A stretch of 36,004 bases of DNA, taken from the NCBI GenBank assembly GCA_013538855.1, contig JABXJS010000021.1, forward strand, positions 1-36,004. The letters are read 5' to 3'. The DNA comes from Herpetosiphonaceae bacterium (GTDB taxonomy: Bacteria; Chloroflexota; Chloroflexia; Chloroflexales; Herpetosiphonaceae). Under the pieces are notes generated by a model. That model ran no database searches. It saw only the letters and a program-made list of their open reading frames with translations, and was not told where the DNA came from. This document shows positions 29,680-35,850 of the stretch, piece by piece (position 1 is the first letter of the stretch; every line of letters starts with the position of its first letter). The position numbers and the translations under genes are program-made.

Positions 29680-29755
29680 TGGAGCGGGAGACGAGGCTCG
29701 AACTCGCGACCTTCTCCTTGGCAAGGAGATGCTCTACCAACTGAGCTACTCCCGC
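29680..29755 (-). tRNA. tRNA-Gly(GCC)
   Basis: The cloverleaf folds completely: acceptor GCGGGAG/CTCCCGC, anticodon stem TCTCC/GGAGA with loop TTGCCAA (anticodon GCC), T-loop TTCGAGC, and an encoded CCA end at 29682-29680. It is transcribed with the Leu tRNA 10 bases upstream. Confidence 0.96.
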
Positions 29756-29765
29756 TTAATTGCCA

Positions 29766-29850
29766 TGGTGGGGACGGAGAGACTCGAACTCTCACGTCGT
29801 AAGACACTTGCTCCTAAGGCAAGCGCGTCTGCCAATTCCGCCACGTCCCC
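29766..29850 (-). tRNA. tRNA-Leu(UAG)
   Basis: An 85-base class II tRNA with acceptor GGGGACG/CGTCCCC, anticodon stem CTTGC/GCAAG with loop CTTAGGA (anticodon TAG), a long variable arm, T-loop TTCGAGT and an encoded CCA. The long variable arm and anticodon confirm leucine. Confidence 0.96.
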
Positions 29851-29940: not shown

Positions 29941-32310
29941 TTATGGTTCGAGCGTCAGTCCTGAATTAAGATTCAGCTGCAAGGTGGGCGTAAAGTTCTT
30001 ACCTACAATTGGGAAGTAGGTAAAGCCCCCTTGGAACTGCGACTCGACCGTAAACTGGAAGGTGTTATCGTTCTCCCACTCGTCGTTGATCGTGTCGGCC
30101 TCGGTAACATTGTTGCCAGAGTCAACAATGGCAACCACATTCCATGTGCCGGTTTGATTGAAGATCAACAGCCAGTTTGCAGCCGGACATGCATTGGAAG
30201 GACCGCAGTTGGTGCGCCACGAGCTTGGCGGGATTGAGTACTGCGAGTCGGCAGGCAGCAAACGCTTGTCCACTTCAGCATAGGCGGCACTGGTCAGCGG
30301 GTAGGCACCAGAGACAGGATCTTTGTCTGGTATAACCACCGGTGCGCCTGGTGGGAACACATACAGATCGACAAAGAAGGAGCCTATTCCCTCAATATCA
30401 GTATCAAGAATCGGTTTATTTACCGTTGAACCAGCGGGCTTGGAGTTGCCGATAATCACCTGCGGCTCAATCGTGACACCCTGCTGAATGGTGGGGAACT
30501 GGGCATCATCAACATGCAGCTCAGGATAGCCATCGACCTCATAGCGCACCTGGACTGGGCCGCTCAAAATTGGTGTTGCGTTGCGGTCTTGTGGCTGATC
30601 TGTGGTTAACAGCGCGCGGTACTGTACATAGCTCCCAATAGTTGATGTGATCACATTGCCTGTGTTAGCGCCACTGACGGAGTAGAAAGCACTGCCGGTA
30701 TCGCCATCAACAGGAACCCACTCGGCAGTATTCAGGGCCGTCGGCGAGGAGGCAACGCGCACCTCCATTTGAATATCGGTGTTAATGCTGCCAGTTCTGC
30801 TAACCGCTGCAGTCCAGTTCAGGCCCGTCACCTTGGCTGGCGCACGCATCTGGAACGGAGCGGACAAGTACAGGCCAGTATCGGCATAGGCCACGTTGTT
30901 CTCGGTATCGACATCATCATCAAGACCGATAAAGCCAAACACGACATCTTGAATAAAAGCATTACTTTGCTTTTGGATGCCGCCAAGGAGATAGGCAATC
31001 GGACGGTTGTTAATTGTCACAGTCACTAGGCCATGGTCGGAGCGTGCCCATATATCGAGCAGCGCCGTATCGCTACGCAAGAAGTTCCCCTGAGCAAAGG
31101 TTGGCAGCTGAAGATCCTCGTTAACATAGGAAGTCATCACAGCCTTGGTGCTTGTATCTTGGGCTGCACCAATCAAGCCACCAGCAGTGTAGATCTTCTG
31201 ATTGAGACCGACTGCGCCGAGGTGTGAAAGTGGCTCCGGCAGCGTATACTCATTTGCCGCACCAGTTTGCCATGTAAGATCACCGGTAAGCGGGTTGATC
31301 TCTGCCAAGAAAACACGCTGTGAGGCCTGTGAATCTGCCGGGCAGGACCCCGTCTGTTGACCAAGAGCAATCTGAAACTCACCGCCAATGAGCGCCAGCA
31401 TACGCTTATCGCCATTAGCGACGGTCACGACATCGAAGTTTGTGGCCGCTGAGTCGGTGAGGCCAATTAATGACTGACACTGCGCTGGCAAACTAAACAG
31501 CAAGGGCACCGGAATCGGGTCGATGGTCACCCAGTCCGTCAGGTCACCTGCTGCTGTAACTTCAGCGCGAACAACGCTTTGGAAGGTTTGTGGCGAGAAG
31601 CCTTGATCGCGACCGCCAAAGGCATACACCCATGTCTTGCCAGCCAGATCGCTGTGGTACGCAGTCATTGGGAAGCGCGAGCGGAACGACTCAAAGCCCG
31701 GAAACTTTGGCTGGGTGCGCCATGTGCCAAGCGAACCATCGGGATTGATCGTGGCTGCCCAGACTGTATCGACAGAGTCTTGGTTCGCATCTTGGCCGCC
31801 TGCCACCACGATAATGCCGCTGTTAGGATTATTGGGCAGTGGTGCTGCAGCCACACCCATTGAGAAGCGTACATCTGGCAAGTCCTCGCTAGCCGTTGTT
31901 GACCAGCCGCTGATTCTGCCATCCGTAGCAAGCACTTCGGTGCGACAAACTTCTTTAAGCGGGTTGGGACTATTGGGCGCGCCAGTCAAGCCGCCAATAA
32001 CATACATATAGTGACCGAACGATACAGCGCCGTGGCTGCCCACTTTACGACAAAGCGTACCATTCGGCAGCGTTTGCCAAAGCTTGAGCACGCCAAGCGG
32101 CACGAGCTGCACACCACCGCTTTGCGCCAAGCCGGTCAAGCCGAACTTACCAGTGGCAAAGTCGTTTTGCGTTTGGGTTACCGTCTCATTGACGATGATC
32201 ACAGCGGCTGTTGGCCGGGCAGGCAGACCTAACAAAGCCACCAAACATGTAAGCACAAGAATCGGAGACAGGCGTTGAACAAAAGGTTTGCGGAAATTTC
32301 TCCTCGACAT
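29941..32310 (-). CDS. Secreted Kelch-repeat protein with C-terminal CARDB-like domain
   Basis: A 789-residue exported protein. The N-terminus is basic then hydrophobic, with likely cleavage near ARPTAA (residues ~31-36). Six double-glycine motifs (IGGL, AGGQ, FGGR, IGGE, AGGL, LGGI; the first near residue 106) spread over ~90-460 mark a six-bladed Kelch beta-propeller. Further on are beta-sandwich-like regions, and the last ~200 residues (VDGYPELHVDDAQFP to TWNVVAIVDSGNNVTEADTINDEWENDN) look like a CARDB-type adhesion/Ig-like module. Ligand unknown. The ATG at 32310 has AGGTGA upstream; an earlier GTG would add eight residues without a site. It is the last gene of the TadE/vWA operon. Confidence 0.82.
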   Translation of the reverse strand: MSRRNFRKPFVQRLSPILVLTCLVALLGLPARPTAAVIIVNETVTQTQNDFATGKFGLTGLAQSGGVQLVPLGVLKLWQTLPNGTLCRKVGSHGAVSFGHYMYVIGGLTGAPNSPNPLKEVCRTEVLATDGRISGWSTTASEDLPDVRFSMGVAAAPLPNNPNSGIIVVAGGQDANQDSVDTVWAATINPDGSLGTWRTQPKFPGFESFRSRFPMTAYHSDLAGKTWVYAFGGRDQGFSPQTFQSVVRAEVTAAGDLTDWVTIDPIPVPLLFSLPAQCQSLIGLTDSAATNFDVVTVANGDKRMLALIGGEFQIALGQQTGSCPADSQASQRVFLAEINPLTGDLTWQTGAANEYTLPEPLSHLGAVGLNQKIYTAGGLIGAAQDTSTKAVMTSYVNEDLQLPTFAQGNFLRSDTALLDIWARSDHGLVTVTINNRPIAYLLGGIQKQSNAFIQDVVFGFIGLDDDVDTENNVAYADTGLYLSAPFQMRAPAKVTGLNWTAAVSRTGSINTDIQMEVRVASSPTALNTAEWVPVDGDTGSAFYSVSGANTGNVITSTIGSYVQYRALLTTDQPQDRNATPILSGPVQVRYEVDGYPELHVDDAQFPTIQQGVTIEPQVIIGNSKPAGSTVNKPILDTDIEGIGSFFVDLYVFPPGAPVVIPDKDPVSGAYPLTSAAYAEVDKRLLPADSQYSIPPSSWRTNCGPSNACPAANWLLIFNQTGTWNVVAIVDSGNNVTEADTINDEWENDNTFQFTVESQFQGGFTYFPIVGKNFTPTLQLNLNSGLTLEP

Positions 32311-32329
32311 GGGTATCACCTCGAACATA

Positions 32330-32359
32330 AGCACGCGGCTGCTGTAACAACCGCGTGCT
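32330..32359 (-). promoter_or_regulatory. Hairpin between the vWA and Kelch genes
   Basis: Stem AGCACGCGG / CCGCGTGCT (9 bp, 12-base loop) in the 91-base gap between the vWA stop and the Kelch start. No U-tract follows, so it is probably a stabilising or attenuating hairpin that sets relative expression rather than a full terminator. Confidence 0.45.
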
Positions 32360-32401
32360 CATACTCAACCAACAAACGCTGTACTCCTTGCCATAACGAT
32401 G

Positions 32402-34732
32402 TTATGGACAGGCGGCGTTTGACTCGTCGTCAATTTCTAGTGTTGCATCTGGGCCGACATAGTTTTGACCAGACGGCATCACGATCGTAATTTGACTTGC
32501 CGGAGCGCCCAGCTCGGCTGTGCGAATACGGTTATACGTGCGCGGAATATCCTGGGTATCCTCAGGAGCAACGGCGGTTACTGTTGCGCGCACATAGTAT
32601 GTGCCAGCAGGGAGCGATACACTGACATTGCCGTTGGCATCAGCATTCACCGTTTGACCACCAGAGCCACTGCCGGATTGGGTGAACGTCACTTGAACAT
32701 TCGGCACGGTTGTTAGCAGCGAGTGCGGCTGGCACGGCGAGCCAAGCCGCTGCTTGATGTTATCGATCATCGCCTGAATGTCTGCTGTGCTGTTGGCTTT
32801 ATAGACAGCACCGGGAGCGATCAAGTCCAGACCGGTGTCGCTGATGTTGTTGACACCAACCAAGCCAATGGCGTAGATACCAATGTTGTCCCCATAGCGC
32901 GCACGCAGACTATCTGCTTGGCGAATCGCGGCGATGATCGGCGCATTGAGATTCGTTGGGTTATCAACGCCCTGCGTGAGCGAGCAGTTGCGCTGCGCAT
33001 AGGCTGAGTTCAGCGACTGGGCTGGCGAAATGTTGCTGCCACTGCCACTCAAACAGCTAACTCGATTGATCTTACCATTATCACTGCCGCCATGATAGAC
33101 GTTGGTCAAACCGTCGGAGATGATCAGCACGACCAGCTTGACCGGATTGCCATTCACATCCACAGAGCGCGCATTGTTGAGCTCGAGTGCAGCCGTCTCC
33201 AGGCCATGTGTGGTGGCCGTGTAGCCGTCCATTGCGTTGGTTGGCAGCGGCGAGCTGGTGGCATTGCGCGCACCTAAAGCGCTTGAAGTAAAGAACGCAT
33301 TCACGTCAGTGGTCAACCCAACCGTGACATCAGCTCCGTACCTTGCTCTGGAACCAGGCAGACCAGAGACGTTAAGACCGTAGCGGATCAGCGCAAGGCG
33401 ATTGTTTGCACCTTGGGTTGCAACACGTGTTTCGAGCATTTCGATCACAAAGTCGCGTAGGGCGCTTTCAGCCAAGTCGATGCGGCGGCTGCCGACTGGA
33501 CATACTGTATCGCTATCCCAGCAGAACCGCATCGAGCCTGAGATGTCTTCGACCATGACGAAATCGTAGTTGCCAACCGCCGAGGCTGGATCGATCCAGC
33601 GCAAGTTCGTATCGAAGTGCATCGTATAGACGTAGTTCGGCGGCGTGGCAGGTGGTGACACACGGCAGGAACAGTTAGCGTCGGTCGAGAGCAGCGCAAA
33701 ATCCATGCTCTTAGGGTTGCCCGTATAGTCGATGTTCAGCAGCCGCACCTTCGCCAAGCGGCTGATGTGGAAGGCCAAATTGCTGCCCCCAAGATCGTTG
33801 GTCGTGTCGTGCAGCGGGATGATCATGATCGTCTTGTTATCGACGTGCCACTGGCTCTCGCTCTCGATAGTGCGCGCATTACCTGGCTTGGTCTGAATCC
33901 AGTCGCCAACCTCGAGCTGGTGGTTCAACTGGCTTTGCGCCACAGTATCGCCGCTGGGCGGCGTAGCCTCGGTAAAGCCGTCGGCCAAGTTGCCTGCGCC
34001 GCGCATAGAGTTGCCTAGGCCGTTTGCGCTGCTGTTGCTCGGGTCCCAGTTCAGCCACAGGAAGTCGCCGCGCTGCGGGTTCTGGGTGCGTGAGACGTGG
34101 ATAATCGACTGCGGCGCATTGGCATAGATATCGGCAGCCGAGGCATCCCAGTAGCGCTGATTGAGCGGCACCACATTTTGCTCTTCAATGAGGTCCTCAT
34201 CGAACGTCACTGGGTAAATGCCCTGCACACAGGCGCACAAGCCTGCGATGCCCTGCGCGCCAACGGTGTACTTATCGGTGCCGAAGACGCTGGCAAACGT
34301 CGTTGCAACGTTTTCGCGCGTCCAAACCTGCACATAGTTGGCCCCAAAGTTGTAGGGGTTGGCGGTGCCACCAGAGCCAACATCGCGCAGGTAGGTGCCG
34401 GTGTTGTCAAGGTAAACCGCTTTATAGTAGACCAAATCTTTATCATTGTAGCTGGTCCAGTTGGCAGATGAAGGAATCTGCTGAACCGCTGTACCAGTGC
34501 CGTTGGCGATCATTTGATTGCGAACTGTTTCGGCGACCCGGATATCCTGCTGCTGCAAGAGCACGTCGTTCATCCCAGAAACCGCCGCTGCACTAGAGGC
34601 TGCCTGTAGTGTGCGCTGGCGTTGGAACGCATTGCCAGTGTCTACAGTTAACCCAGTGAAGGCGATCAGGATCAACAACAGGATCGCCATAAAGACGATG
34701 GATTGACCTGCTGTAATGCGAAATTTGCGCAT
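32402..34732 (-). CDS. TadG-like von Willebrand factor A protein
   Basis: A 776-residue protein. The N-terminus (GQSIVFMAILLLILIAFTG, residues 9-27) is the TadE/TadG-type pseudopilin or anchor helix, followed by ~30 helical residues (RTLQAASSAAAVSGM). A long Cys-poor region follows to ~385, then a vWA domain with MIDAS residues D396-x-S398-x-S400 (DISGSM), T507 or T508 and D540 (ISDG), which bind a divalent metal. The C-terminal ~90 residues (VQVTFTQSGSGSGGQTV; LPAGTYYVRATVTA) resemble a carboxypeptidase-regulatory or SdrD-like beta domain. GGAGG lies 7 bases before the ATG. It probably displays a metal-dependent adhesion module on the surface via the Tad-type anchor. Confidence 0.85.
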   Translation of the reverse strand: MRKFRITAGQSIVFMAILLLILIAFTGLTVDTGNAFQRQRTLQAASSAAAVSGMNDVLLQQQDIRVAETVRNQMIANGTGTAVQQIPSSANWTSYNDKDLVYYKAVYLDNTGTYLRDVGSGGTANPYNFGANYVQVWTRENVATTFASVFGTDKYTVGAQGIAGLCACVQGIYPVTFDEDLIEEQNVVPLNQRYWDASAADIYANAPQSIIHVSRTQNPQRGDFLWLNWDPSNSSANGLGNSMRGAGNLADGFTEATPPSGDTVAQSQLNHQLEVGDWIQTKPGNARTIESESQWHVDNKTIMIIPLHDTTNDLGGSNLAFHISRLAKVRLLNIDYTGNPKSMDFALLSTDANCSCRVSPPATPPNYVYTMHFDTNLRWIDPASAVGNYDFVMVEDISGSMRFCWDSDTVCPVGSRRIDLAESALRDFVIEMLETRVATQGANNRLALIRYGLNVSGLPGSRARYGADVTVGLTTDVNAFFTSSALGARNATSSPLPTNAMDGYTATTHGLETAALELNNARSVDVNGNPVKLVVLIISDGLTNVYHGGSDNGKINRVSCLSGSGSNISPAQSLNSAYAQRNCSLTQGVDNPTNLNAPIIAAIRQADSLRARYGDNIGIYAIGLVGVNNISDTGLDLIAPGAVYKANSTADIQAMIDNIKQRLGSPCQPHSLLTTVPNVQVTFTQSGSGSGGQTVNADANGNVSVSLPAGTYYVRATVTAVAPEDTQDIPRTYNRIRTAELGAPASQITIVMPSGQNYVGPDATLEIDDESNAACP

Positions 34733-34773
34733 TCGATGCCTCCTCGAATGAAAATATCAACTAGACCGTTGAA

Positions 34774-35286
34774 TTACCGACTAATCGTCATTTGACGGGT
34801 GGCGCTAAGCCGAATGCTATCGGCACCAATCAGCGTTGCACCGGAAAAGAACGGTTTGTAATCGTACAGAACTGTGACCACCATGTCGCAGAACTGTGAA
34901 CGTCGATTGGTGCAATCTGCGCCACTCGATGCCGCATTGGCGACGGAGCTAATTTGAATATAGCTGTTATCACTGTCCACAGCTCCATCGGTGTTTAGAT
35001 CAAACAGATTAACAAAGCGCGCCCGATGGGGAATATTTGTGTTCGGGCCGGCCTCGTTGCGCACATGGGCGATGATCTCAGCGTCGTTGACAGTATCGCC
35101 CTCCATTGGCATCAAAGCGGCATAGGCGGCACCCTCTTGTGCTGCTCCTGAAATACCTTGATATGCAAAAAAAGCTAAGCCGAAGTCAATCGCGGCTGAT
35201 GTTATTAAGAAGATGAGGGTAATCACCAGCGCAAACTCAACCAGTGATTGTCCTCGGCGTTTGGGTTTTGGTTGATGAAGTTGCAC
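34774..35286 (-). CDS. TadE-like pseudopilin, second copy
   Basis: A 170-residue protein with the TadE N-terminus: basic, then GQSLVEFALVITLIFLITSA (13-32) and DFGLAFFAYQG, in which the glutamate after the glycine lies in the expected position for prepilin-like processing. A small soluble domain follows. The start is GTG at 35286, with GGAG 8-9 bases upstream. It sits 12 bases after the other TadE gene and 41 bases before the vWA gene, so the genes are cotranscribed. Confidence 0.88.
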   Translation of the reverse strand: MQLHQPKPKRRGQSLVEFALVITLIFLITSAAIDFGLAFFAYQGISGAAQEGAAYAALMPMEGDTVNDAEIIAHVRNEAGPNTNIPHRARFVNLFDLNTDGAVDSDNSYIQISSVANAASSGADCTNRRSQFCDMVVTVLYDYKPFFSGATLIGADSIRLSATRQMTISR

Positions 35287-35298
35287 AGCTATTACTCC

Positions 35299-35850
35299 TT
35301 ATGGCACTATGATACAGTGCTCGTAGTCGCGATTGTCAACCACTGCGTTGATCAGCGGCCCGTTCGATACAATGGTACGCCGCGAGATCGCCACAAAATG
35401 AAAATCATCACCGCCATTGAATGTTTCGGCAACTGGGGTGAGCGGAGCGATCGCTTTATCAAGGCGCACTTCAACAACATTGCCTATTTTCTTTGGATTG
35501 GCACTCGCCGCACTCAGTGGAGTTACTGCCGCTGCCGAGTCGTAGTAGTGCAACGTAAGCTGCGTTAGATCCGGCTTGGTCTTGGCGTTGATCCAGCCAC
35601 TCTTCTGCATTTCGGCGACAATCTCTTGCAAGCATGGATCGCCAGCGTAGTCCAATGCGCTGTAGCTCGACTGCACTTCGCGAGGCTGATTTAGCGACGC
35701 TTGCTCTGCGCCGCGCCGCGCCGCAAATTGGATCTCCGACCAGGCATAGATGTAGTAGCCATAGTCGATCGTCGCAAACAAAAAGAACATAATGAGCGGG
35801 AATACTAGTGCAAACTCAACAAGTGTTTGCCCTCGAGACTTTCGTTTCAT
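35299..35850 (-). CDS. TadE-like pseudopilin, first copy
   Basis: A 183-residue protein whose N-terminus KSRGQTLVEFALVFPLIMFF is the TadE signature, followed by DYGYYIYAW. The C-terminal domain has two cysteines (DPCLQEIV and EHCIIV) that could form a disulfide. GGAGGAATCT precedes the ATG at 35850. It heads the operon; no ATPase (TadA), prepilin peptidase or Flp pilin gene lies within the window, so the machinery would be elsewhere. Confidence 0.88.
   Translation of the reverse strand: MKRKSRGQTLVEFALVFPLIMFFLFATIDYGYYIYAWSEIQFAARRGAEQASLNQPREVQSSYSALDYAGDPCLQEIVAEMQKSGWINAKTKPDLTQLTLHYYDSAAAVTPLSAASANPKKIGNVVEVRLDKAIAPLTPVAETFNGGDDFHFVAISRRTIVSNGPLINAVVDNRDYEHCIIVP

Follow-up and report, generated by a model that had tools for sequence, protein, structure and literature searches.

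Tad pili have been proposed as the surface-motility motor of the Chloroflexales in a cryo-tomography study, which also reported tadEEG, rcpC-tadZABC and flp genes in three species of the order (PMC7332563), and a Tad operon has been reported in Litorilinea (PMC13319060). According to the earlier genome paper of Herpetosiphon aurantiacus, the gliding genes of Herpetosiphon and of other Chloroflexi had yet to be identified (PMC3368417). Published work supports a role for minor pilins of the TadE/F/G type as a complex at the pilus tip, where they prime the pilus and bear domains that can be adapted (PMC12075869), and, in Caulobacter crescentus, for the TadG-type minor pilin CpaL, which includes a vWA/MIDAS domain, as a tip component involved in sensing surfaces (PMC12607857). 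In PilY1, a vWA domain and a seven-bladed propeller are found in one chain (PMC13190605). Here, we describe a locus from a member of the Herpetosiphonaceae, of a genus other than Herpetosiphon, in which two TadE proteins, a TadG-like protein with a vWA domain and a secreted Kelch protein are encoded side by side.

A four-gene unit

The window, i.e. the whole stretch of 36 004 nt that was analysed, is an entire contig (C131). A check of its ORFs confirmed that the four of interest are open on the minus strand, namely tadE1 (35299..35850), tadE2 (34774..35286), tadG (32402..34732) and the Kelch gene (29941..32334), here called the tetrad. The gaps from each stop to the next start are 12, 41 and 67 bases, and the four genes are therefore read as one unit. 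The last gap becomes 91 bases when the Kelch protein is started at Met9 (about position 32310), which is the conserved start; the GTG upstream of it is not conserved as a start. A promoter and terminator scan yielded sites no more numerous than in shuffled sequence.

The product of the first gene, TadE1 (183 aa; Pfam TadE, E 2.4e-15), is conserved as the first of the tetrad in relatives and has the prepilin site RG/QTLVE followed by a hydrophobic helix, and that of the second, TadE2 (170 aa; Pfam TadE, 1.7e-10), which is also the second in relatives, has the site RG/QSLVE, so that both conform to G/Q-x-L-V-E. Hence, the two TadE-like pseudopilins recognised in an earlier reading of the sequence alone (the sequence-only reading) are confirmed by Pfam matches above the cut-off as well as by their prepilin sites. 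The TadG-like protein (776 aa) matches both Pfam Tad (1.5e-06) and Pfam TadE (5.9e-05) above the cut-off at its N-terminus, and has an A-G/Q-S site. A single hydrophobic helix follows the site in each of the three proteins, all of which combine an N-terminal TadE or Tad domain, a prepilin site and this helix, as Tad minor pilins do.

TadE2 is enlarged in some relatives, to 320–1260 aa; in L074:7756-9498, L075:11143-14925 and L073:2717-4498 it has grown from approximately 200 aa to 580–1260 aa, suggesting that the second TadE bears a tip domain that varies.

Upstream of tadE1, 154 bases remain before the contig ends (position 36004). In Herpetosiphon and in G001, a genome from the same family as the window, a conserved membrane protein of about 938–947 aa with several hydrophobic segments is encoded upstream of tadE1 (L050:11558-14374 on the minus strand, L052, L053, L063 and equivalents), and its gene is probably the one immediately past the edge of the window. 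This protein has no Pfam match, and its positional counterpart in L057 shows a weak likeness to mannosyltransferases (PMT_2, 0.0039). It might be a candidate for glycosylation of pilus proteins.

The vWA domain of TadG

A Pfam search did not find a vWA domain in TadG, and its presence is supported by an AlphaFold model, by Foldseek matches and by the MIDAS residues. The model consists of a long N-terminal pilin helix (residues 10–58), a beta region, the vWA domain (about 388–665) and a C-terminal beta domain (about 667–767), though with a mean pLDDT of 71 and a pTM of 0.40 the placement of the domains relative to one another is unreliable. Its best Foldseek matches are the pilus-tip vWA adhesins PitA, Mfa5 and RrgA and the minor pilin PilB of Streptococcus sanguinis (PDB 7b7p; E 5.7e-09). 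The metal-binding residues D396, S398, S400 and D540 had been noted before and are present, with T505 as one further residue, and each of the 28 complete relatives retains all five positions, with S or T at 398. The DxSxS...T...D pattern of vWA adhesins is thus found on a Rossmann-like vWA fold.

In one genus (L058, L059 and L061), two vWA-TadG genes flank both of the tadE genes and the Kelch gene is single.

Tad machinery elsewhere in the genome

The sequence-only reading had reported no pilus ATPase, prepilin peptidase or Flp pilin, which is correct for the window; for the genome it is not, as all three are found on other contigs. Contig C114 carries, in order, rcpC/cpaB, a fusion of a response regulator with tadZ, tadA, tadB, tadC and a DUF192 gene. 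An A24 prepilin peptidase (24.9–26.8 bits against a cut-off of 26.5) is encoded on C264, while C37 and C31 encode Flp-type pilins (69 and 73 aa) that have the site G/Q-G-L-V-E-Y-A, and the genome hence includes both an Flp major pilin and a prepilin peptidase. According to a genome-wide search for TadE matches, the only TadE/TadG genes are the three in the window, and the only two T2SSF matches are the tadB and tadC pair on C114. With one tad core and one tadEEG set in the genome, the simplest inference is that they belong together.

A second TadA-type ATPase (505 aa; T2SSE, 2.9e-68) is encoded on contig C179 (L191:10971-12488, plus strand) and has counterparts in every genome of the family that was checked. 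It has no adjoining tadB or tadC, and the genome has a single tadB/tadC pair.

Gene order in the Chloroflexales

Of 41 Chloroflexales genomes, the one under study among them, 34 have TadG. The order TadE-TadE-TadG is conserved across the 31 loci of relatives that were examined around TadG, and the Kelch gene lies directly after tadG in 29 of the 30 that could be tested, L073 having been excluded where its contig ends. The exception is L081, in which TadEEG and the core are present and no Kelch gene adjoins them, and the Kelch protein is therefore not strictly required. Chloroflexus aurantiacus J-10-fl and Roseiflexus sp. RS-1 are probably among the genomes of the order.

The tetrad runs on into rcpC-tadZABC in 17 relatives, the Kelch gene lying between tadG and rcpC. 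One of these is G001 (L063), in which several genes of the locus appear fragmented. In the window, the place taken by the core in these 17 relatives, downstream of the tetrad, is occupied by genes for tRNA-Gly and tRNA-Leu (29680..29850, minus strand; ARAGORN). The tetrad is likewise apart from the core in six Herpetosiphon and four Chloroflexus-type genomes; in the three Herpetosiphon for which the core loci were examined in full, a complete rcpC-tadZABC-DUF192 set is found elsewhere, and in H. aurantiacus it is about 0.96 Mb from the tetrad. A linked tad locus, which had been proposed as something to look for in related genomes, was hence found in 17 relatives and not in Herpetosiphon or Chloroflexus, while the four-gene order, sought in the same way, held. 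The further proposal that the four genes form one unit also stands, as they are not scattered in the relatives and it is the core that moves in some genera.

TadE and TadB/TadC (T2SSF) are likewise missing from the seven genomes without TadG. Association with a tad core is thus seen in three ways, as a core on C114 of the same genome, as contiguity in 17 relatives and as joint loss in seven genomes, and the tetrad is very probably the minor-pilin (tip) module of a Tad (Flp, type IVc) pilus.

Six genomes of a single genus with genome sizes of about 3 Mb (G010, G029, G033, G035, G037 and G039) have no detectable TadE, TadG or TadB/TadC.

The Kelch protein

The Kelch protein (797 aa as listed; Pfam Kelch_1, 1.4e-08, above the cut-off) has a hydrophobic, signal-like segment near residue 30 and no pilin helix. 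In its AlphaFold model (mean pLDDT 84), a six-bladed propeller (about 83–476) is followed by beta domains (about 486–766). When residues 80–476 of the model were compared with six-bladed Kelch domains using VIA-align, Z was about 33 over 278–317 residues, and six conserved glycine-pair sites in an alignment of 28 family members also support six blades. The repeated blades that close a Kelch propeller are hence seen both in the Kelch_1 match and in the fold, and the blade number given in the sequence-only reading is supported. The CARDB-like end that it described finds no counterpart in Pfam at E up to 1, though the tail is modelled as beta-rich.

Across 301 genomes of the phylum, full-length relatives (E below 1e-95) are confined to the Chloroflexales; matches elsewhere are short and limited to generic Kelch repeats, the best at 1.8e-22. 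No relative was found in the plasmids searched.

A C-terminal tag of exported proteins

In the family alignment, 15 relatives of the Kelch protein have as their very last residues a motif resembling [YF][LV]P[LV][VI]xR, and many exported proteins of the Chloroflexales end exactly in [YF]-hydrophobic-P-hydrophobic-[VI]-x-R-stop (for example, L147, a 527-aa ORF, L148, L158, L168 and L176). A DNA pattern for the tag and stop occurs 19 times in the genome under study compared with twice in a reversed control, and 13–35 times in most genomes of the f4 family, which includes Chloroflexus, compared with 0–2 in controls; counts are near the control level in Herpetosiphon and most other families. A signal-like N-terminus is present in 18 of 20 tagged ORFs with complete starts compared with 37 % of ordinary genes (p = 2e-6). 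No matches to the tag were found in G010, the one member checked of the genus of about 3 Mb genomes without a tad set, and a literature search on spelled-out forms of the tag found no paper. The tag may be an undescribed sorting or anchoring signal. The Kelch protein encoded in the window ends differently.

Proposed function

In the mechanism we propose, the A24 peptidase from another contig would process the prepilins TadE1, TadE2 and TadG, whose helices would form a minor-pilin cap. This cap would prime the TadA/TadB/TadC motor, encoded at the separate core locus, to assemble Flp subunits. TadG would hold its metal-binding vWA domain outward, as an adhesin that binds surfaces or as a force sensor. 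The Kelch protein would be exported by Sec and, if docked on the tip beside TadG, would add a second binding face, the two proteins together dividing between them an action like that of PilY1. Extension and retraction of a pilus with such a tip could lead to attachment to surfaces and possibly to gliding.

That the Kelch protein docks at the pilus tip is the most economical guess for a protein that has a signal-like segment and no pilin helix and is a constant neighbour of TadG, and we consider the chances of this to be close to even, if slightly below. A serious rival, to which we give nearly as much weight, is that it has a role in the envelope or in assembly and is not a tip component, acting, for example, as a secreted chaperone, as an assembly factor or as a part lining a pore, and so helping the pilus across the Chloroflexota envelope. 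The same signal-like segment and missing pilin helix are compatible with such a role, as is the position of the gene between tadG and rcpC in the 17 contiguous loci, and the tag that ends 15 members of the family suggests anchoring or sorting rather than incorporation in a pilus. However, the exact tag is absent from members of the Herpetosiphonaceae other than G001, large Kelch propellers are typical interaction modules, and the pairing of a vWA domain with a propeller matches a known tip protein, PilY1.

The tetrad is conserved also in genomes attributed to the phototrophs Chloroflexus and Roseiflexus, so that its general role is not predation, and we consider it improbable that it serves a predation-specific Tad pilus resembling the Kil pili of Myxococcus, with a tip that detects prey. 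Such a role would accord with the predatory habit of Herpetosiphon (PMC3368417) and with the TadEFG-like tips with modular domains found in Kil pili (PMC12075869). Less probable still is the pilus-free, stand-alone surface adhesion or sensing complex envisaged in the sequence-only reading, as the separation of the tetrad from the core in its own genome, in Herpetosiphon and in Chloroflexus has to be set against the core found in TadG-positive Herpetosiphonaceae and adjoining the tetrad in 17 loci, the joint absence of TadE and TadB/TadC from the seven relatives without TadG, and a genome with no other TadE/TadG genes to serve the machinery on C114. With the core, the peptidase and Flp in the genome and contiguous loci in relatives, a stand-alone new surface system was rejected. 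Nor is the system undescribed, as had been suggested, since tadEEG of the Chloroflexales has been published (PMC7332563) and the tetrad adjoins a standard tad core in 17 relatives, a finding of the kind that the sequence-only reading had itself named as refuting it.

What survives for a tip module of a Tad pilus is the earlier proposal of a conserved pilin-like unit displaying two large modules of the ligand-binding type on a filament; the alternative of a wall-anchored complex is unsupported. In its fullest form, the mechanism proposed here would make the Kelch protein an order-wide and so far unrecognised component of the Chloroflexales Tad pilus, docked at the tip on TadG with its vWA domain, the two forming a counterpart of PilY1 of independent origin, with the tip gripping the surface during gliding. 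We regard this extended version as rather unlikely and offer it tentatively.

Comparison with known systems

The closest described genes are the tad genes of other Chloroflexales, and hence of the same taxonomic order, with the same TadE-TadE-TadG set and the same core; the text of that paper does not mention Kelch (PMC7332563). A literature search outside the subscription journals found no paper on a Kelch protein beside Tad pilus genes. What is new here is the conserved Kelch partner, together with a TadG whose MIDAS is complete throughout the order. A conserved tip module of this kind, in which a metal-binding vWA domain is paired with a Kelch protein, provides specific genes to delete in culturable organisms.

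PilB of S. sanguinis resembles TadG in being a minor pilin with a vWA adhesin domain, though its pilus is of another type IV class, and it is not known to have a Kelch partner. TadG fits the description of CpaL as a TadG-type minor pilin with vWA/MIDAS; however, the vWA domain of CpaL is split by a beta-rich insert, whereas TadG has an additional beta domain at its C-terminus and is accompanied by a separate Kelch protein (PMC12607857). The TadEFG tips of Kil pili likewise consist of three minor pilins, of which the largest carries a modular domain facing outward, but here the set is TadE-TadE-TadG with a vWA domain, and the Kelch protein beside it is no pilin (PMC12075869). Docking of the Kelch protein would be comparable to that of TcpF on TcpB, mentioned in the same paper (PMC12075869), and, in function only, to that of PilY1 on type IVa minor pilins. 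By analogy only, PilY1/PilC of type IVa pili and the proteins described here would share the pairing of a vWA domain with a beta-propeller at the pilus tip. Pfam searches at E up to 1 found no PilY1 (PF05567) match in TadG or in the Kelch protein, and membership was rejected on sequence, leaving only the analogy. In PilY1, a single protein includes a propeller of seven blades that binds calcium, whereas here there are two proteins, six Kelch blades and another class of pilus. The conserved module also suggests that pilus tips have arrived on more than one occasion at the combination of a vWA domain with a beta-propeller.
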